Positions 1,308 through 18,167 of a DNA stretch of 64,000 nucleotides are shown one piece after another. Positions within the stretch are counted from its first letter, which is position 1. The number at the start of each line of letters is the position of its first letter. The stretch comes from Indolivaga capnocytophagoides DSM 22835 (GTDB lineage: Bacteria; Bacteroidota; Bacteroidia; Bacteroidales; Dysgonomonadaceae), in the NCBI RefSeq assembly GCF_000426485.1, contig NZ_AUFL01000008.1, positions 62,001 through 126,000 of the forward strand. The letters are read 5' to 3'. The translations under genes and the position numbers were made by a program. The notes beneath the pieces were generated by a model, which made no database searches, had not been told where the DNA came from, and was given only the letters and a program-made list of their open reading frames with translations.

Positions 1308-1516
1308 GTATTTGAGAATTGAATAACGGTACTTGAAAAGAGTCAGATACTTTTGTAATACACGTTAACTTTTGTGAACAAAGGTCACAAAAAAGTAATT
1401 TCTCAACAATCCCTTTTTATAGGTATTTTGACAAAAAAACAAACTATATAGGTACTAATCGATCTGTAGTTAGATACTCATAAGATACGGTTTTAAGAAA
1501 GTCATAACGTTTCCAT

Positions 1517-2178
1517 ATAGCTGTCTTTACCTTCATTCACAGTAATGGTCGCTATGCTTGGCTCTTTTGTCACCAAAACACATAGGCTTTTATGGAGTCG
1601 CATCGTAACTCCTTCCGTGAAGTCACAGGTGTTCTCTCCATGACGGTTTACGATATGCGGTAGCCATCAAAGAGTTTGTAGGAGCCGAGAAAAGGCCTAC
1701 AGAGGCCCTACTTCGTCTGAGCAACTTCTACCAATGTCATTATCGCTTTTGTAATGCTCGTGCAGGTTGGGAAAAAGCGAAATATGTTCGCCGCAAAGCT
1801 TTTAGCGTCCTTCTGCACTTCGACAGTTTAGAGGAAGTTCAAAACCAACTCCCTACTACTTGCAAGCATATCAATACCGAAGAAGGCAGCTTGTCTACCG
1901 TAGGTAAGCAGACTAAATTGGAAGCGGAGTTAGCTGCTCTTAGAGCATGTCATAATGAGATGGGATGCTTTGAGTTAGATACTTACAAGGTAGATAAATG
2001 GTCTACTATCTGTATGAAAGTCTCTCATTATTCAGTTCCTGACACCTTGGTCAGTAAGCTGGTAGATGTAAAAATCTACTTTGAAAAAGTTGTTATGCTC
2101 TATAATAATCAAAAAGTAGTCGTGCATGAGCGCATCTATCATCTAGCGTTTACACTCAAGTATAGAAAAGTGAAGTAA
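1517..2178 (+). pseudogene. istA: IS21-family istA transposase remnant
   Basis: Two reading frames joined by a frameshift give a recognisable IstA C-terminal half. Frame one (from 1517) has HSNGRYAWLFCHQNT, an in-frame TAG at 1583, then GVLSMTVYD, the region of the second catalytic Asp. At about 1660 the frame must shift by one base to continue as VAIKEFVGAEKRP, NARAGWEKAKYVRRKAF and, near the end, SHYSVPDTLVSKLVDVKIYF. This matches the order of segments in Bacteroidetes IstA (DDE integrase core, then the C-terminal beta domain). The usual KGxVE segment with the catalytic Glu seems to be deleted between KAK and YVRRK. No istB follows. The element is dead. Confidence 0.75.
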
Positions 2179-3622
2179 AACAGCGAATTATTAACCTATT
2201 AAAAAAAAATCAGGGTCGTGGATTTGCTGTGATTTACATTATAGGAATTTGAACTTCATTTGGTAACTGACCTTCTTCGTAGATTTGGATCGTTCTGTAT
2301 TGCTTAAGGTACAACAAAAAGGACTATCGGCTATTAATCAGTGGATTATAAAATACTCATTCCTCAATAGATAACGATTTGGCCACGAACTTTGCAATAT
2401 TTCAACTACATCTTTTTCTGTATTTCTGGCTTTTCTGTTATCAAGCCTTTATATAAATGGGTAGAGATTGAGATTCTACTATTTTCGTAGATTTACTGCT
2501 TGTAGTATATCTACAAAAAGGTAACTATTGTTTTTCTGCGTTTTTCTTATCTTTACTTGGTTGATTTTTAGAATATAAGCCTGTTTTTGTAGATTTTGCT
2601 GTGATTTGCTATGTTTTGCTTAGTAACTTTACTATTCATGTAGCTAGGCATATTAATTATCCTTACCGATTGATAAAGAGTAAATTATAAGAATATTTTT
2701 CTTAATAGTTAACAGTATAGAAACGAGTGGAATGCTCATATTTGCTTCATTATTCTGCAATGATCAAAGAACTCTTTACGAGTATAAAGTTAAAGAAATA
2801 TCACTATATGACAAACTTTTATTAAGCTATTTGTTTCTCTTTTTGATAAAATATCGTCTTGATTTTATTCTTGAAATTAGATCTCATTCAGCAACCATCA
2901 TATATTCTTAGATACAGTAAATGCATAGATTCTGTTACTGACTTAATAACAGACCTGTATATTAATAAACTAAAGTAAGTCACAGAAAAATAGACTTTAG
3001 GTTTTTCCGATGAGGTATTAGGTGTTCTTTAATTTAATCTAGATTGTCTATTCATCCTCTTTCTTTCTGTCGGAAAATTCAAAAGCAGATAAAATATCTG
3101 CTAAGGGTGAAGATTCGATTATTTGGTGTCGTAAAATAAAAACACTTGGTTATCTATACCTTTTTGTGTGCTAATGAACATAAAAAGCTTACCTAACGAT
3201 AAACCTTTGTGTTTGTATATAGTTGAGGAAACTATTTTAATCCTTTGCTAATTAATATGGAAATCTTATCTGTTGAAAACAGATAACAGAGCTATTTGAG
3301 TGCATGGAACAATAAGTATGCCTAAGCGCCTTATTCTTACTTCTCTACTACATTTTTTACCCAAAAAACTTTGTTTGGTTGATATATAAATGATTAACTC
3401 TGAACTGCCACAAATATGTTAAAATTATTTGCAAAAAACATTGTCTTAGAGAAAACATCAGAGATCTCCCTTTCTTAAAATTTTTGTAACTAAAAAGCTA
3501 CAAGAAAATGATCTTTTTTATTATTTGAATGATTTTTCGTCCTTTTTGAATGATTTTTTACCTCTATTTTTCACCTTTTTTGTTTTCATTTGTATCATTA
3601 GCACATAACCTTACAACAACTA
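2179..3622. other. 1.4-kb AT-rich stretch without a recognisable gene
   Basis: No open frame of credible length or composition is present on either strand. Short direct repeats occur: GATTTGCTGTGATTT-like words near 2220 and 2592, and TTTTTGAATGATTTTT twice near 3520-3560. The last 80 bases before 3623 are T-rich and could hold the promoter of the RiPP-type locus, but no clean TAnnTTTG box is visible. The stretch sits between an IS remnant and a truncated biosynthetic locus, so it is probably decayed DNA. Confidence 0.5.
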
Positions 3623-4660
3623 ATGAATAAAACAATCAATATAGATGAATATATCTATAAATTAAATCATCAATTAACGATTATACAAGACAGAAAAGAC
3701 CTGCCTATCGGACTTTTATCCGGAAAGATGGGGTTATGTATTTATTTCTATCAATTAGGACGATCTAATAACAATGAAGTGTATGGTAAGATTGCAGAAA
3801 AACTAATAGATGAGATATTTGTGCAAATTGGTACAATTTCTGCCATCGACATAGAAAATGGTCTGTCGGGTATAGCATTAGGCATAACCTATTTGATCAA
3901 AAATGGTTATGTTCAAGGAGATGAAAATAGCTTATTAAAAGACATTGATGATGAGATTTTCAAACAAATCAGTTTCAACAGACTAGAGGAAAATATTTCT
4001 GTTCTTATTCAAATTCTATATTATATTTACATAAGAAAACAATCTTTAAAGAATGAACAAGACTTTCTTTTTAATGAATTTGCCATACAAATAATCAATG
4101 ATCTACACTCAAAAACAGAACAGATATTACATGAAAACACCATAGTTTTTAATATTAATACCCATCTACCTTTACTCCTTTTTACTTTGAGTAAAATATA
4201 CCAATTGAATATATATAATAACAAGATAATAAAGATAATACAGGAGATCAGTCCATTCATTTTATCAAAATATGCATACCTCGATTCTAAAAAACTTCTT
4301 TTATTATGGGGTATTAATCAAATAAATAGTTGTATAAGAGATAACCGCTTAACTGAATTTTGCAATTTATTAGTTTCTCAGATCAATATTAATAATTTAC
4401 TTGACGAATTTAAGAATAAAAATATTTTCCTCAATAATGGTATAGCCGGAATATGCCTGCTGTTGCTGACAATGGAGAATAATATAACACAAAATCTTGA
4501 ACTGAATAAATTTTACATTAAAGCCAAAGAAAAGATAGAAAATTCCTCAATATGGGAATTATCGGCAAATACTGAATACTTAAAAGCTCATATTGGATTA
4601 ACCGGTTATTGTGGGGTAATAATGATTTTAAATGCAATAAATCAATCGATATGCGAATAG
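3623..4660 (+). CDS. LanC-like (lanthionine synthetase C-like) protein
   Basis: A 345-aa protein with the repeated alpha/alpha-barrel motifs of LanC cyclases: LLSGKMGLCIYFYQLG (residues 32-47), IENGLSGIALGITYLI (about 79-94), FLNNGIAGICLLLLTME (about 271-287) and AHIGLTGYCGVIMILN (about 324-339). In lanthipeptide synthesis LanC adds Cys thiols onto dehydrated Ser/Thr. Active LanC proteins use a zinc site built from a WCxG cysteine and a Cys-His pair. Here the Cys-His-Gly position reads NNG and no WCxG is visible, so the zinc site seems to be missing. It may be a scaffold or peptide-binding relative. It overlaps the glycosyltransferase start by 10 bases, which suggests coupled translation. The length is slightly short for the family. 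The codons are strongly AT-rich. Confidence 0.72.
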   Translation: MNKTINIDEYIYKLNHQLTIIQDRKDLPIGLLSGKMGLCIYFYQLGRSNNNEVYGKIAEKLIDEIFVQIGTISAIDIENGLSGIALGITYLIKNGYVQGDENSLLKDIDDEIFKQISFNRLEENISVLIQILYYIYIRKQSLKNEQDFLFNEFAIQIINDLHSKTEQILHENTIVFNINTHLPLLLFTLSKIYQLNIYNNKIIKIIQEISPFILSKYAYLDSKKLLLLWGINQINSCIRDNRLTEFCNLLVSQININNLLDEFKNKNIFLNNGIAGICLLLLTMENNITQNLELNKFYIKAKEKIENSSIWELSANTEYLKAHIGLTGYCGVIMILNAINQSICE

Positions 4661-5412
4661 ACCTGAAAGACACAACATTTCTTATAGCCGTAAGATTGGA
4701 TTCTATTCAACGTTTGGAAAACACTCTGGCTGTTATAGCCCAAATATGTAAGTATTTTGATACAAATATAATCCTTGCAGAAGTGGCAGATTGCTGTAAT
4801 GGAATTCTGAAATCATTATTATATAAAAGAGTAACATATATATTTATAGAAGATAAAGACAATGTATTTTACCGGACAAAATATTTTAACCAGTTGACTT
4901 CCGAGATTAAAAGTCCCATAATCGCCTTATGGGATGCAGATGTAGTAATAGACAAAAAAGCAATCTTAGAATCGGTAAATAATATACGTACTTATAATGC
5001 CGATATTTCCTACCCGTATAATGGTATTTTTCTGGAAACATCTGATATAATGCGGAAATATTATTTAAAAACAAAAGATATCAGGGTTTTATATAGAAAC
5101 AAGAATAAACTCAAATTATTATATAATAAACCAATGGTAGGAGGAGCTGTTGTTGTCAACCGGGAGAAATATATACAAGCCGGAATGGAGAACGAAACTC
5201 ACTACGGTTGGGGGAATGATGATTTTGACCGATATTATCGGTTTGTCGCATTAAATTACAAAATACATCGGATCAATACCCCGCTATTTCACCTACATCA
5301 TCCCAGAGGAAACAACAGCCAATTTCGTTCAGATATATTTCAACAGATTTCTTCTTTAGAGCGATTTAAAATGGAAAGTAGTTCGAAAGAGGAAGTGGAA
5401 AAACTTCGGTAA
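4651..5412 (+). CDS. Family 2-like glycosyltransferase (galactosyltransferase-type C-terminus)
   Basis: About 253 aa if translation starts at ATG 4651, which overlaps the LanC-like stop; an upstream in-frame ATG at 4609 would add 14 unlikely residues. It contains the metal/sugar-nucleotide motif ALWDADVVID (near residue 92) and the motif GWGNDDFDRYYR (near 190), which resembles the GWG(E/D)DDD block of beta-1,4-galactosyltransferases. There is no signal peptide or membrane segment, so it is probably cytoplasmic. Its place between a LanC-like gene and a leader-peptide gene suggests that it glycosylates the peptide product. That is inference; the sugar and acceptor are unknown. Confidence 0.78.
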   Translation: MRIDLKDTTFLIAVRLDSIQRLENTLAVIAQICKYFDTNIILAEVADCCNGILKSLLYKRVTYIFIEDKDNVFYRTKYFNQLTSEIKSPIIALWDADVVIDKKAILESVNNIRTYNADISYPYNGIFLETSDIMRKYYLKTKDIRVLYRNKNKLKLLYNKPMVGGAVVVNREKYIQAGMENETHYGWGNDDFDRYYRFVALNYKIHRINTPLFHLHHPRGNNSQFRSDIFQQISSLERFKMESSSKEEVEKLR

Positions 5413-5467
5413 ACAATAGATTCAGAGACTGTTATATAATAGACAAATAATTAGACTTAATATCATC

Positions 5468-6839
5468 ATGAAAATTTATGCAACAATTATACTTATCATA
5501 TTTCACAACATATCTTTATGTTATGGGTATACTGTAGAGCAATCTAAAGATTCTATTTCTAAGAAAATGGAAGTTCCGTCTATAAATTCGGAGGACGACA
5601 AAATATATGCATTGAGTCAGATATGGTCAGAGATAAAATATAATTTTGTGAATATAGATCAACTACAATTTGATATTGATAGCTTGTACAAGATAACTTT
5701 ACCTCGAGTGGTTGATACAAAGAATGATATTGAATTTTATGATGAACTACAGCGCTTTATGGCATCTTTTAATGATGGGCATACAGAACTTATAGGACGG
5801 ACTTATGGGTGGAATGAATACAATGATTATATTCCGGCAAGTGTAACTGAATTAGACCGAAAACTGTATTTTACCTCTATTCGAAAAAATGCTGCTATTG
5901 ATTCAACGTTATTAGGTGCAGAAATAATTGAAATAGAAAGAAAATCAACCAATAAATATCTGGAAGAATACATATTTCCGTTTATTTCATCCTCAACTAC
6001 TGATTTTAAGTGGACTATTGCGGCATCAAAAGTAGTTGGAGGATGCAAAGGTACTTCTTTGAATGGAAAAGCAAAAAAGCTAAACGGAGAAATTGTTGAT
6101 TTCTCTATTTTAAGAAATGGAGAAGCAACAAGGACAAAAAATGATATTTCATGGGGGGCTTCTTTTAAGCATAAGGGAAGCATAAGCTTAGATTGGATAG
6201 ATAATATAGCATATCTTGATATTCGTGCCTTCAGTCCAGAAAGTATAATGAAAGACATTGATTCTTTGTCCTTGCTCATTAACCAAAAAGCAAAAGGTCT
6301 TGTAATTGATCTTCGTTACAATGGAGGAGGTAGCACTAATGTCGCAAACCATTTACTCAAATATATAATGAAAGAAGATAGTTTTTTGAGCTTTGGAGCA
6401 CAAATGAGAATAAATGATGGATATGGTAGGGCTCAAGGTAATTATCGGGATGAATATAAGGATTTCTATAATTATCGTGCATATAAAACAGTAGAGCCAC
6501 GCATTATTAATACAAAGATTCTCAATGCCTATTGTTATATTAATAGGAAAATATAGCTTTTCTGCTTGTGAGGATTTTTTAGTCAACTTATATGAAATCT
6601 TTAATCGCCCAATTCTCATCGGAGAATCTACTGCCGGCTCCACAGGTGCTCCTTTAGTTATCCATTTACCTCATGGAGCTATAGCCCGAATAACAACAGT
6701 GAGAGACATGTATCCAATTAGTCAAAAACCATATGTAAAAAACAGTATTACACCCGATATCAAAATAAAGCAAAACATAAATGATTATCTAAATAATAAC
6801 GATATCGCTTTACAAAAAGCGATATCAATTTTAAAATAA
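5468..6839 (+). pseudogene. S41 family C-terminal processing peptidase, split by a frameshift
   Basis: The first frame (5468-6556, 362 aa) starts with a signal peptide (LIIFHNISLCYG) and runs through the S41 motif KGLVIDLRYNGGGSTNVANH. The second frame (from about 6525 to 6839) continues with VILIGKYSFSACEDFLVNLY, where the Ser in SFSACEDF is the expected nucleophile, and ESTAGSTGAPLVI. A one-base (+1) shift near 6520-6530 separates them. I see no slippery heptamer or stimulatory hairpin, so mutation or sequencing error is likelier than programmed frameshifting. Intact, it would be an exported serine protease of about 450 aa. S41 proteases occur beside double-glycine peptide genes in Bacteroidales, where leader removal is one proposed role. 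Confidence 0.75.
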
Positions 6840-6849
6840 AAAGAATATT

Positions 6850-7044
6850 ATGAAAAAATTAAACAAATTAAAATTAAATGAACAACTTCTTAATGAAGAT
6901 GAGTTAAAAATGTTAGTCGGAGGGTATGATATTAGTAATAATAACTCACATTCAACATGCTCATGTACCTATAAAAACAATAGTCTTTCTCTGACTAATA
7001 GCAATTCTGTTAGCGGCTGTGAATGTACATGTACAAGTCATTAA
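6850..7044 (+). CDS. RiPP precursor peptide with double-glycine leader and Cys/Ser/Thr-rich core
   Basis: A 64-aa peptide. Residues 1-25 form a basic, Leu-rich leader (MKKLNKLKLNEQLLNEDELK) ending in MLVGG, the pattern of the Bacteroidales GG-leader natural-product precursors. The core, residues 26-64, has five Cys (37, 39, 57, 59, 61) in CSC and CECTC clusters and 15 Ser/Thr, with many Asn and no long hydrophobic run. Such a core suits thioether crosslinks, heterocycles or glycosylation. It lies 10 bases after the protease gene, and the LanC-like and glycosyltransferase genes are upstream. Its 3' end is about 12 bases from the breakpoint with a foreign gene fragment, so any export genes that followed have been lost. 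Confidence 0.78.
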   Translation: MKKLNKLKLNEQLLNEDELKMLVGGYDISNNNSHSTCSCTYKNNSLSLTNSNSVSGCECTCTSH

Positions 7045-7055
7045 TGTATATAGAT

Positions 7056-8022
7056 GGGAAATCGATACATACGTCCCCGGGAAATATTCTTTCTTCCCTT
7101 TATTAATAGGAACGACAGCTTCCTCGATGATATCCGTTTCCGAAAAATCATAAAGGATCTTGCCATGATTACTCCTGACTATCAATAAGCCTTTGTATCG
7201 TTTTACGATGACCAGTAAATCAAACAAGCCCCGCGGAATGTAATTGTTGACCTTATCGAACTTATCGAGAATAGGATTGCAGGAAGAAGCGTGTTTGAAG
7301 GCATATCTTAAAACATCATCATCATCTATCTGGGTAAATAAGTTCGATTCGGGTATATTATTGTCCGCCCGGTATTGCTTCATTAACGATTTAACAATGC
7401 CAATGCCAAAATCAATAAACGAAAACTGTATGAGATTCTCGTTTTTATATACGCCGAGTTTATCATCATAGAAAAATGGCTTTGACTCTGGCAGTTCCTG
7501 TGTTTCAAAATTAAACTCTGACAGGTTCTGTTGGATATATTCTATAATAAAATCAATATATTCGTCGTCTTTAAATTTTATCTTTATGTTACCGATGTCA
7601 TATCTCAGCCGTTCAAGGTTAGGGATATTTCTGTACTCCAGATAATCAAATATCTCCTGTTCTTTTTCACATTCTTTCAGGGCATAACGCAATTTTTTCA
7701 GTTCCAGCTTATTCTTTAATGAGATGCTCATGAACGCCCAGTTCTCCGAACTAGGAAAGAACGAATTGCCGAAATGATCGAGAAAATTATCATACAGCTC
7801 TTTTGTTATAATAGAACTGATCGTTTTTGAGACAAAAGGATGCTCACATTTGGTCGCCGATAATTTTGTATTGACAGCCTCATTTAAATCATAGACCGGT
7901 TTGAGCTGATCATGCATTATCCTGTCATAAACCCAGTCTTTAATATACTCCAGGGAGACAAACGGGATGATATTGAAATCATCGAATATTTCGTTGTTAA
8001 GATCGTTTGCAAGAGAAAGAAC
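7056..8022 (-). pseudogene. Fragment of a GHKL-type ATP-binding protein
   Basis: The minus-strand frame is open from 8022 down to 6961 (ATG at 7917). Family-like sequence, FSFIDFGIGIVKSL, then RGLFDLLVIVKRYKGLLIVR and EYFPGTYVSIS, stops near 7056. The remaining residues are only the antisense of the RiPP precursor and are not protein-like. The D-G-GI and GT-VS blocks suggest a histidine-kinase-like ATPase domain of the kind seen in stand-alone ATP-binding proteins paired with STAS-like partners. Upstream, a stop codon abuts the frame at about 8023 where another fragment begins, so the gene is broken at both ends. The specific role is unknown. Confidence 0.6.
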
Positions 8023-13233: not shown

Positions 13234-14817
13234 ATGAAAAAGACAAAACTATTATTAGTACTATTAGCTTCAGCTCTTGGGTTTATCGCTTGTAGTGATG
13301 ATAATGATTTGCAAACCTCTGCAGAGACAGATGCAAATACAAACGTAAGTATAACCCTTAGTTTGCCTCAAAACTTATCGTTGAGGGCCTTACCTTCGGA
13401 TTATAACGATGTAGGGGAGTGGGCAGGAAAAGATAAGATTGAAAAGGTGGCCATATTTTTAGTGGATGGTTCTACTGTCACTACTGCTGCATATACAGTT
13501 GGTACAACAGTTGATGACGGATATACTCAGGAAGTGTCAAACACTTCTAATCAGGTTGTATTAAAACCTAAAAAAGCAATTAAGACATCAGCCGGCATAA
13601 AAAAAGTTTATGTGCTGATCAATGGTAATTCTGATATTGAGGCTGCATTAGCTGCAACACCCGCAAATACATTTGAGGACACTTATAAAACTGCAGCGTT
13701 AAACCTTGTAAATTCAGGAACAAGCCTTACTGTAAGTACATCTGCCGATAAATTGGCAGCGAAAAATGGTACAGCAGACGAAACTATTGTTATGACAAAT
13801 GTGCAGGAAGTTTCTATTAATGTAGCGCCGAATGTAAGTGCCGAAGATGCCCTGAGAGATGCTAATCCGTTGAATAGAGCGAGTGTACAGGTTGAAAGGG
13901 CTGTTGCCCGGGTAATGGTTACCACTGCAGCCCCAACATATGAAATAAAATCCGGAGCAGATTTACTGGGTACAATTTCGAATATAACATGGGTATTGGC
14001 TCAAGGTGAAAACTCGGTATATATTCAACGTAAATCAGACTATGTAACACCCAATTATGGATGGATTCCTACTACTAATGCCGAATATTTCGGTAATGCG
14101 GGAAATAAGTATGACTATTCAGGATTATTCGAAGAATATAATGGTTCTGCACTGTTTGGAGGAACTCCTGTTCCGACAATGGCTGATTATGCAGCAGCTT
14201 CTGCTCAGACACAAATTACTGATGAACTAAATGCTAAATTATCAGGAAAGTTTATTCTGCCGACAACACATGCGACAGGTGTAGCAGATGCGTCGAGTTA
14301 CAAAAAAGGGAATACTGCCTATGTTCTGGTCAGAGCCAAATTTACTCCTGCCGCTTTAGCTGATGGCGGAACTTATACTGCAGGCAAAGATTTTTATCTC
14401 GGAGCTAATGGTAAATTTTTTGCTTCTGCCGAAAATGCTGTTGATCCAGCCAAAGGAGGAGTTGCAGGCCAGACAGTTGCCAAATATGTAGGAGGTAAAG
14501 TGTTATATTATGCATGGGTCAATCCTGATAATATTCCAACCTGGTATAACTCTCCGGTAGTTAGAAACAATATATATCATGTACATATTTCAGGTTTTAA
14601 AAATCTGGGAACAAACTGGAATCCGCTTTATCCCGAAGATCCGAATAGTTCTACTCCCGCCAATCCTGATCCGAAGCCTGTTGTACCGGGTATAAATGAA
14701 CCCCAAAATCCTATAGCCCCTACTGACCCTTTAACTACTCCTGAAACATGGATGAGTGTGGATGTAAAAGTGTTGCCATGGAAACTTCACTCTTATAGTG
14801 TTGACTTAGGCATTTGA
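13234..14817 (+). CDS. Mfa1-family fimbria major subunit
   Basis: A 527-aa lipoprotein precursor: signal peptide and lipobox at residues 14-20 (LGFIAC), followed by SDDND, an acidic lipoprotein export signal that directs proteins to the cell surface in Bacteroidetes. The mature protein is rich in Ala, Thr and Val, as Mfa1-type fimbrillins are. Residues about 215-235 (RASVQVERAVARVMVTT) match the conserved core strand of the N-terminal domain. The C-terminal region has VVRNNIYHVHISGFKNLG, the typical Mfa1 C-terminal motif, then a Pro-rich stretch and a final WMSVDVKVLPWKLHSYSVDL donor-strand-like segment. In Porphyromonas this subunit polymerises after gingipain-type cleavage near an Arg. It has its own promoter and is followed by a hairpin. 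Confidence 0.85.
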   Translation: MKKTKLLLVLLASALGFIACSDDNDLQTSAETDANTNVSITLSLPQNLSLRALPSDYNDVGEWAGKDKIEKVAIFLVDGSTVTTAAYTVGTTVDDGYTQEVSNTSNQVVLKPKKAIKTSAGIKKVYVLINGNSDIEAALAATPANTFEDTYKTAALNLVNSGTSLTVSTSADKLAAKNGTADETIVMTNVQEVSINVAPNVSAEDALRDANPLNRASVQVERAVARVMVTTAAPTYEIKSGADLLGTISNITWVLAQGENSVYIQRKSDYVTPNYGWIPTTNAEYFGNAGNKYDYSGLFEEYNGSALFGGTPVPTMADYAAASAQTQITDELNAKLSGKFILPTTHATGVADASSYKKGNTAYVLVRAKFTPAALADGGTYTAGKDFYLGANGKFFASAENAVDPAKGGVAGQTVAKYVGGKVLYYAWVNPDNIPTWYNSPVVRNNIYHVHISGFKNLGTNWNPLYPEDPNSSTPANPDPKPVVPGINEPQNPIAPTDPLTTPETWMSVDVKVLPWKLHSYSVDLGI

Positions 14818-17210: not shown

Positions 17211-18167
17211 ATGAGTCGAATAATATATATGTTGTTGTCGGTTAATCTGCTTTTGATGCTGTCTTGTTCCGAAGATAAGATCATCGAAGCAGGTGCAGAT
17301 AATGACAAAATCGAATTGTTTTTCGATGTAAATAATTATACAAGAGCAACGTCAACTGTCATAGAAAATGAAACAGAAGAAGAGCAAGTGGTCGAAAACT
17401 TGTATGTATTTCTATTTCCCACAACAGATAATCAGGCTGTAGTCAAATATTATGTTTCAGCATCGGTTTTTAGTGCAGGGACATGGAGTACTGCAGATAA
17501 TAAAATTTCGCTAAATGCTAATAAATCTGATATAGGGTATAGGGATGTGTATATTGTTGCAAATTGTTTCTCAATCAAATCAAAACTTGATGAGGTAACC
17601 TCGGAGAGTGATCTGGAGACTGTTTTGCAAACAACCGAGGAACCTTGGTCAGAAAATATTACTACTCCGTTATTGATGTCAGGAAATAAGCTGCACGATT
17701 TCAACACTGCTGCGCGTTTGGATAATATATCTTTGATTCGCGCTGTAGCTAAACTGCAATTGAATATTACATTATCAAAGGAGCATCAGACTTACCCTAC
17801 AATAGATAACGAACCTCAATACAAATACAAGTTTATCAACTTCGACAAAAATACATATGTTTTACAAACGGGAAATAAAGTCAACTCTTTGATCAGTTCC
17901 TCAGACTGGCTGGGGTGGAGTGAATCGGGGAACGTAACTTCTTATCGACGTAATGCAGATGGAAAAGTTATTGGGATGAGTCTTGTTACTTATCTGAATG
18001 AGAGTGTCCCCTCTTCGGGTTCTATTGAAATAAGCTTGCCATATCATGATGCAGGCTCATTGCCACCACCCGAATTCGGAGACGAAACGTATAGGTTGCA
18101 ATTGCCTCAGCATATTGAACGCAATCATTTATACAGATATGATATTTCTCTGTCATCAGATAATTAG
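17211..18167 (+). CDS. Fimbrillin-family minor subunit lipoprotein
   Basis: 318 aa. Lipobox LLLMLSC near residue 19, followed by SEDK, a probable surface export signal. The domain features match the preceding gene: VVENLYVFLFPTTDNQ near residue 60, YRDVYIVANCFSIKS near 105, ISLIRAVAKLQLNITL near 175, and a terminal LPQHIERNHLYRYDISLSS strand. It is probably another tip or adaptor subunit of the same fimbria. Two paralogous accessory subunits in a row are normal for these operons. Confidence 0.72.
   Translation: MSRIIYMLLSVNLLLMLSCSEDKIIEAGADNDKIELFFDVNNYTRATSTVIENETEEEQVVENLYVFLFPTTDNQAVVKYYVSASVFSAGTWSTADNKISLNANKSDIGYRDVYIVANCFSIKSKLDEVTSESDLETVLQTTEEPWSENITTPLLMSGNKLHDFNTAARLDNISLIRAVAKLQLNITLSKEHQTYPTIDNEPQYKYKFINFDKNTYVLQTGNKVNSLISSSDWLGWSESGNVTSYRRNADGKVIGMSLVTYLNESVPSSGSIEISLPYHDAGSLPPPEFGDETYRLQLPQHIERNHLYRYDISLSSDN

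Follow-up and report, generated by a model that had tools for sequence, protein, structure and literature searches.

A probably decaying GG-leader peptide locus that pairs a zinc-less LanC-like protein with a glycosyltransferase in Indolivaga capnocytophagoides

We analysed a stretch of 64,000 nucleotides from the genome of Indolivaga capnocytophagoides DSM 22835 (the window; bases 62001-126000 of contig C5 in a draft genome of 4.38 Mb, 38 contigs and 98.65% completeness). With moderate confidence, we read the locus at 3623-7044 as an operon, incomplete and probably in decay, that encodes a ribosomally synthesized and post-translationally modified peptide (RiPP) with a GG leader. In this reading, a LanC-like protein and a glycosyltransferase (GT) are a glycosylation module added to a Cys peptide of the type that is matured by radical S-adenosylmethionine (SAM) enzymes. 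The locus contains the following features:

3623-4660, plus strand: LanC-fold protein of 345 residues, probably intact, lacking the CHG zinc motif (PF05147, length of relatives)
4651-5412, plus strand: GT-A glycosyltransferase, beta-1,4-galactosyltransferase-like, 253 residues (PF10111, PF02709, D-x-D motif)
5468-6556, plus strand: S41 peptidase, N-terminal piece (PF03572 and alignment to the S41 peptidase of locus L040)
6525-6839, plus strand: S41 peptidase, C-terminal piece, out of frame with the N-terminal one (PF03572 and alignment to residues 347-455 of the L040 S41 peptidase)
6850-7044, plus strand: precursor peptide of 64 residues, with a GG leader (residues 1-25) and a 39-residue core (TIGR04149, family alignment, repeat test)

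An initial annotation of the window had described four consecutive genes here, all on the plus strand. Their coordinates are confirmed and their identities are upheld by Pfam and NCBIfam, except that the S41 protease, taken as one gene frame, consists of two pieces in two frames. The LanC-like and GT genes overlap by 10 bases, and the later gaps are 55 and 10 bases long. No break interrupts the LanC-like, GT and peptide genes, whose lengths match those of their relatives. That the genes belong together by more than chance is borne out by locus L040 of one other genome, G014 (L and G numbers denote loci and genomes used for comparison). Its neighbouring genes encode an S41 peptidase that is 57-60% identical to the window pieces, and three tandem precursors that show 52-55% identity with the window peptide and align with it at all five Cys.

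The window peptide scores 32.1 bits against NCBIfam TIGR04149 (cut-off 25) and is the single TIGR04149 peptide of its genome. GG-leader homologues, on which the initial annotation had depended, were found in relatives. The core has five Cys and two N-x-N-x4-C-x-C units. With three peptides in L040, two in L106 and four in L123, it forms a family of 10 members in four genomes, and all ten cores contain exactly two such units, 19 or 20 residues apart. Two units arose in only 0 to 15 of 5000 shuffles per core, and none of 27 comparison GG peptides has even one unit (these were listed from the fetched loci, one copy each, those missed by the leader pattern not being included). In a six-frame scan of 145 sources (1,161,928 bases, with overlaps included in the total), the double unit was confined to the ten precursors. 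Precursor searches gave 2 strong and 7 weak matches in 101 family genomes (weak ones at E 2e-6 to 4e-3, several to the leader only), 3 strong and 1 weak in 393 order genomes and, at E 1e-4, a single match among 395 class genomes, the window's own, which suggests that the family is rare. Judged by its sequence, the peptide belongs to a precursor subfamily with a two-unit Cys core that is new relative to the searched literature. The Asn residues that invariantly precede the Cys pairs may be acceptors or recognition sites.

Related loci are fuller than that of the window. In L040, the order is S41 peptidase, the three precursors, a radical-SAM protein of 445 residues (PF04055), and then a C39 exporter and HlyD; all four gene kinds of the window are present. 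L106 (genome G459), on a contig of 4.4 kb, has two precursors, an S41 peptidase and a radical-SAM protein of the same type in two frames (2950-4258), so that decay of this system may recur. L123 (G181) combines four precursors with a radical-SAM protein of the L040 type and a distant S41 peptidase, and L107 (G179) has an S41 peptidase, such a radical-SAM protein, an exporter and HlyD, with no precursor seen before the contig end. In L144 (G016), a more distant L040-type radical-SAM protein (E 1.8e-35) is accompanied by a different GG peptide that also bears Cys, by a C39 exporter and HlyD, and by a LanC-like/GT4 pair. One radical-SAM type is thus common to these five loci, and the C39 exporter with HlyD to L040, L107 and L144. 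The presence of maturase and exporter beside precursors supports the description of the window locus as a remnant of a RiPP locus, and the suggestion that the cluster is truncated agrees with L040, L107 and L144. Conservation of the same four genes elsewhere was confirmed in part: L040 has all four kinds, whereas none of the other genomes examined has the strict set with the window's GT subfamily.

The maturases of L040, L107 and L123 have CefB, TIGR04463 and Clo7bot as their best NCBIfam matches. The scores of 115-164 bits are far under the cut-offs of 525-600, and the proteins therefore fall outside the named families. Radical-SAM enzymes of this kind, as the family names also suggest, would form thioethers from Cys.

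From L040, L106, L107 and L123, a fuller form of the system can be proposed. A SPASM-type radical-SAM maturase would cross-link the two-unit Cys core, probably by thioethers from Cys. The product would then be cut at the GG and exported by the C39 ABC transporter with HlyD. The S41 peptidase, probably exported, would act on the precursor or product, whether in trimming, turnover or immunity. An added glycosylation module would consist of the LanC-like protein with the galactosyltransferase-like enzyme. In this module, the zinc-less LanC fold would not cyclise anything, and may instead hold the peptide, or the leader, for the transferase or present it to that enzyme.

Several of these components are missing or damaged in the window. 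A tblastn search of the 64 kb and 16 kb upstream with 18 proteins of the relatives' loci gave no LanB, radical-SAM or exporter match, in agreement with the initial annotation, which had seen no dehydratase, radical-SAM enzyme or ABC exporter in the 64 kb. The significant matches were the S41 and LanC-like genes themselves, and the best stray match was with a pseudo-radical-SAM query (E 0.008). In the window genome, no protein exceeds the TIGR04148 cut-off of 300 bits; the best score, 47 bits, is that of a protein on contig 11, and the L040 maturase matches only part of this same protein (44.6 bits over 159 of 445 residues). A C39 ABC transporter and HlyD pair lies on contig 16 and none in the locus, so that export in trans is possible. 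Each S41 piece matches PF03572 (35.3 and 37.2 bits, cut-off 24); together they cover the L040 peptidase, with the break at 6525-6556, and relatives with intact copies exist. The catalytic serine presumably lies in the second piece (6525-6839). In view of the undetected maturase, the broken S41 frame and export only through the pair on contig 16, the finished product is probably not made.

One could also regard the locus as complete without cross-linking, with precursor, S41 processing, glycosylation and export in trans through contig 16, yielding a glycocin-like product with Cys free or disulphide-bonded. The open LanC-like, GT and peptide frames and the C39/HlyD pair in the genome speak for this possibility. 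The broken S41 frame and the retention of a radical-SAM protein beside this precursor type in L040, L106 and L123 argue against it, and we regard it as distinctly unlikely. Within the N-x-N-x4-C-x-C precursor group as defined here, the window has the GG leader, the two units and the adjoining S41 gene, and no adjoining radical-SAM maturase. An S41 gene also adjoins the precursors in L040, L106 and L123. Separately, a relative from the same S41 group was seen about 5 kb from a Cys-free GG-leader peptide (L105:3643-10730), an arrangement that suggests that this group may serve other peptide systems.

The LanC-like protein matches PF05147 (LANC_like) with 29.9 bits (cut-off 23.2), best over residues 28-162, and its four nearest relatives have 343-351 residues. 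Sequence matches in the PDB are weak (LicM2, E 0.017 alone and 7.2e-6 with a family profile). In a Foldseek search with an AlphaFold2 model built from 4 sequences (mean pLDDT 61), ranks 1-5 were taken by CuvL, LicM2 and NisC (best E 1.0e-3), and the predicted fold is therefore that of LanC. In an alignment of 20 sequences, the invariant residues G30, G34, G80, G83 and Y134 are all N-terminal. The true LanC has C-terminal WCYG and VCHG motifs, and the others are divergent or lack this part. A hidden Markov model (HMM) of the 19 zinc-less rows, run on larger loci, retrieved 40 LanC-fold proteins. The CHG motif is absent from 38 of them, including the window protein, which also lacks WCxG. The two proteins that have CHG and WCxG, L112:10997-12175 and L137:12794-13981, both adjoin LanB and serve as positive controls. 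Each of these two clusters contains, besides the true LanC, a separate zinc-less LanC-like protein beside a GT. A cyclase role for the window protein, in which the initial annotation had seen a LanC-like cyclase fold, was rejected, since the zinc motif is missing and the zinc-less copy adjoins a GT where the true LanC adjoins LanB.

These data also bear on whether the window holds a lanthipeptide locus, in which the LanC-like protein would be a cyclase acting on dehydrated Ser and Thr, with the dehydrating enzyme encoded elsewhere. The PF05147 match, the LanC fold in the model search and the presence of LanB in related genomes are compatible with this idea. Nevertheless, the window protein lacks the motifs that both fetched true LanCs have, and relatives of the window precursor pair with radical-SAM proteins. 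Of the features of class I lanthipeptide loci, neither the LanC zinc ligands (C...CHG) nor a nearby LanB is present: a LanB search of the window and its 16 kb upstream flank gave no match, and did not extend to the rest of the genome. We consider a lanthipeptide locus very improbable. As side observations, LanB was located at L112:7909-12175 and L039:15397-18470 (both halves by Pfam) and at L137:12794-16194 (where similarity identifies the N-terminal half). The genomes concerned share the genus, family or order of the window, and the L112 and L137 clusters are those with zinc-bearing LanC. No Pfam match was obtained for the small genes that adjoin the LanC-like ones in L008/L045 and L024.

The window GT scores 30.5 bits with PF10111 (cut-off 27.3) and 29.7 bits with PF02709 (cut-off 23), and has weak PDB matches to beta-1,4-galactosyltransferases 1 and 7 (E 0.11-0.48). 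D95-x-D97 and G186-W-G188-x-x-D191 are invariant in the window GT and five relatives (6 sequences); we take them to be the motifs of beta-1,4-galactosyltransferases. The nearest relative is found in L031 (71-72% identical).

Association with a GT is characteristic of the zinc-less LanC-like proteins. A GT is adjacent to or fused with 32 of the 38 copies, compared with 46 of 392 other open reading frames (ORFs) from the same loci (at least 200 residues, neither GT nor LanC-like). Without the loci that had been fetched through the GT (L137-L143), the figure is 27 of 31; L144 is outside these counts. An earlier count over 30 loci (L001-L030) found an adjacent or fused GT in 24, or 25 with L026 by way of its longer copy L051. 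In L007 and L027, the GT is listed as the centre ORF, with the LanC-like gene next to it. Five loci did not qualify: L008, L021, L024, L025 and L023, the last with Glf as neighbour and a contig end. The pairing of glycosyltransferase and LanC-like gene noted in the initial annotation is thus the rule, while the product and chemistry it proposed stay at the level of inference. GT2-LanC fusions occur at L039:10028-11686 (GT part by Pfam, LanC part by HMM), L048:9188-10876 (both parts by Pfam) and L049:1671-3320 (GT part from the 30-locus count, LanC part by HMM), and a GT7-like/LanC fusion at L143:5598-6548 (LanC HMM E 6e-7).

Several groups, labelled by similarity, are represented among the partner GTs, and the pairs occur in varied contexts: beside a TIGR04148 radical-SAM protein (L031), beside radical-SAM proteins of the L040 type (L040, L144), beside LanB (L039, L112, L137), and in L036 beside a B12-radical-SAM-like protein (TIGR03975, 156 bits, under the cut-off of 282). 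A single cyclase function is unlikely across such contexts and a single glycosylation function simpler, so that we read the LanC fold as a putative adaptor that would bind the peptide or leader for the GT. UDP-galactopyranose mutase-like genes accompany some GT/LanC-like pairs, at L042:4322-5422 (TIGR00031 over cut-off) and, by similarity, at L041:12793-13896, L046:12382-13536, L110:639-1725 (L040/L110) and L023:89-1186. They suggest galactofuranose on the products of these clusters.

The main competing view of the LanC-fold role is that the protein is a glucanase-like glycosidase, which would act with the GT in polysaccharide synthesis or remodelling and stand beside the peptide gene by chance. 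It gains from the mutase-like genes beside several LanC/GT pairs, and from PMC10352776, which in its accessible text places zinc-less LanCs near carbohydrate-active enzymes (CAZymes) and closer to endoglucanases. Set against this are the recurrence of LanC/GT pairs with GG peptides, C39 exporters, radical-SAM proteins or LanB, the small size of eight of the 38 zinc-less copies (224-235 residues, about 110 fewer than the window protein), and the absence of any glucanase title among the 50 structure matches shown. Overall, we think this explanation unlikely.

Returning to the reading as a glycosylated radical-SAM-type peptide system in decay, a number of observations weigh against it. The GTs of L040 belong to other families than that of the window, and no LanC/GT was seen in L106 (on its 4.4 kb contig), L107 and L123, so that the LanC/GT module is optional. 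Six zinc-less copies are not counted as GT neighbours: L045, L049:1671-3320, L050, L127, L138:18867-19901 and L140. The GT part of the L049 copy was missed by the HMM-based count and flagged in the 30-locus count (as L028), and the figure of 32 of 38 was kept. From the GT side, a LanC-like gene is adjacent or fused in only 5 of 8 places in seven order-sample genomes, the window excluded (L137, L138, L139, L141 and the first place of L143); in L140 two genes lie between, and L142 and the second place of L143 have no adjacent LanC-like gene. The GT could decorate a glycan instead of the peptide, which is a presumed acceptor. The C-terminal part of the LanC-like model is poor and unreliable (residues 259-345 have pLDDT below 50), and the CHG motif is a crude test. 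The S41 peptidase of L123 is distant, being detected by Pfam (53.3 bits) and not by phmmer with the L040 sequence at 1e-4, and close S41 relatives (the 46-57% group) occur in G354, G281, G427 and G228 without such precursors. The S41 frame break may be a sequencing error. Finally, there is no remnant of a radical-SAM or exporter gene near the window locus, so that their former presence is argued by analogy.

The wider proposal that follows is more tentative, and as a whole we would not bet on it firmly. It holds that zinc-less LanC folds are dedicated RiPP GT partners, which have lost the cyclase chemistry and kept peptide binding. They would form a portable, sometimes fused LanC/GT cassette in chemically different GG-leader systems (two radical-SAM types, B12-radical-SAM-like, LanB/LanC), with the window peptide in an undescribed two-unit Cys family.

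The surroundings of the locus are as follows. An AraC-type regulator lies upstream, at 492-1307. Between it and 3623 there is no long ORF, and only a C-terminal fragment of a Mu-type transposase (1891-2178); together with a short ORF at 91-408 that resembles a SusC/RagA N-terminus, this stretch (1308-3622, about 2 kb without a long ORF) looks like a worn insertion region. At the right edge, a 318-residue ORF on the minus strand (6961-7917) overlaps the peptide gene, its 3' end running antisense through it. It possibly marks a deletion edge; a comparison with plasmids and the 100 other family genomes yielded no relatives, and the edge is not datable in this way. Proteins of the fimbrial subunit type are encoded downstream, at 13234-14817 (Fimbrillin_C) and 17211-18167 (MfA4_C with FimA).

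A plasmid origin was considered and rejected. Through the S41 peptidase, 15 plasmid records matched, all at less than 60% identity. The LanC-like protein matched 4 records, and both annotated ones carry housekeeping genes (lysS and gmk; map and nagA) and therefore look like chromosome pieces; a third has no annotation. Two plasmid-labelled records of Parabacteroides distasonis (L125, NZ_OY725771.1, and L126, NZ_OY725766.1) contain housekeeping genes and resemble chromosome pieces. In each, a LanC-like gene is paired with a 'galactosyltransferase-related' one, close to a small peptide rich in Cys.

Lanthipeptide clusters are called by means of LanC homologues, as in the accessible text of PMC7268733. 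If zinc-less copies are indeed GT partners, calls of this sort would indicate another type of product in Bacteroidales, a testable group of glycosylated peptides. The fusions, and the clusters with both true and zinc-less LanC, make this idea directly testable. The two-unit Cys precursors also provide a defined substrate for a radical-SAM group whose members in L040, L107 and L123 exceed the cut-off of no NCBIfam model that would name them.

In a literature search (subscription papers mostly outside it, figures and supplements not included), no GT-LanC fusions, GT adjacency count or repeat precursor were found, and the text of PMC10885120 available has no whole-word 'S41'. Zinc-less LanC near radical-SAM proteins and CAZymes in Bacteroidales is already published. 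As far as their accessible text goes, Fernandez-Cantos et al. 2023 (PMC10352776) reported 263 radical-SAM plus LanC areas and 41 radical-SAM plus LanC plus GlyS areas in 1,136 Bacteroidales genomes, the LanCs lacking zinc motifs, having CAZymes nearby and being 'more similar to endogluconases'. Their areas resemble the present loci in zinc-triad-less LanC near CAZymes, GG precursors, radical-SAM and pseudo-radical-SAM proteins and PCAT transporters, without LanB. They differ in that their Bacteroidales lack LanB, which is present in L039 and L112, from the genus and family of the window, and in L137, from its order, and in that the text holds no LanC/GT adjacency count, fusion or N-x-N-x4-C-x-C precursor. 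Walker et al. 2020 (PMC7268733), in the text available, proposed that unclassified LanC_like clusters without dehydratase may make an uncharacterised RiPP class, and reported that class I clusters of Bacteroidetes combine GG leaders and C39 proteases; their unclassified clusters differ in the absence of a GT pairing there. Clusters with TIGR04149 are described in PMC4573289, again as far as its text is accessible. In the GG-Bacteroidales radical-SAM system (TIGR04149, TIGR04148 and the pseudo-radical-SAM protein TIGR04150), the leader is like that of the window, and L031, with the nearest GT relative, has all three over their cut-offs; unlike that system, the window genome has no TIGR04148 protein over cut-off, and its precursor core type pairs elsewhere with another radical-SAM group. 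With the lanthionine cyclase NisC (PDB 2g02), the window protein shares the fold and differs in lacking the zinc motif, in having no LanB nearby and in having a GT as its partner.

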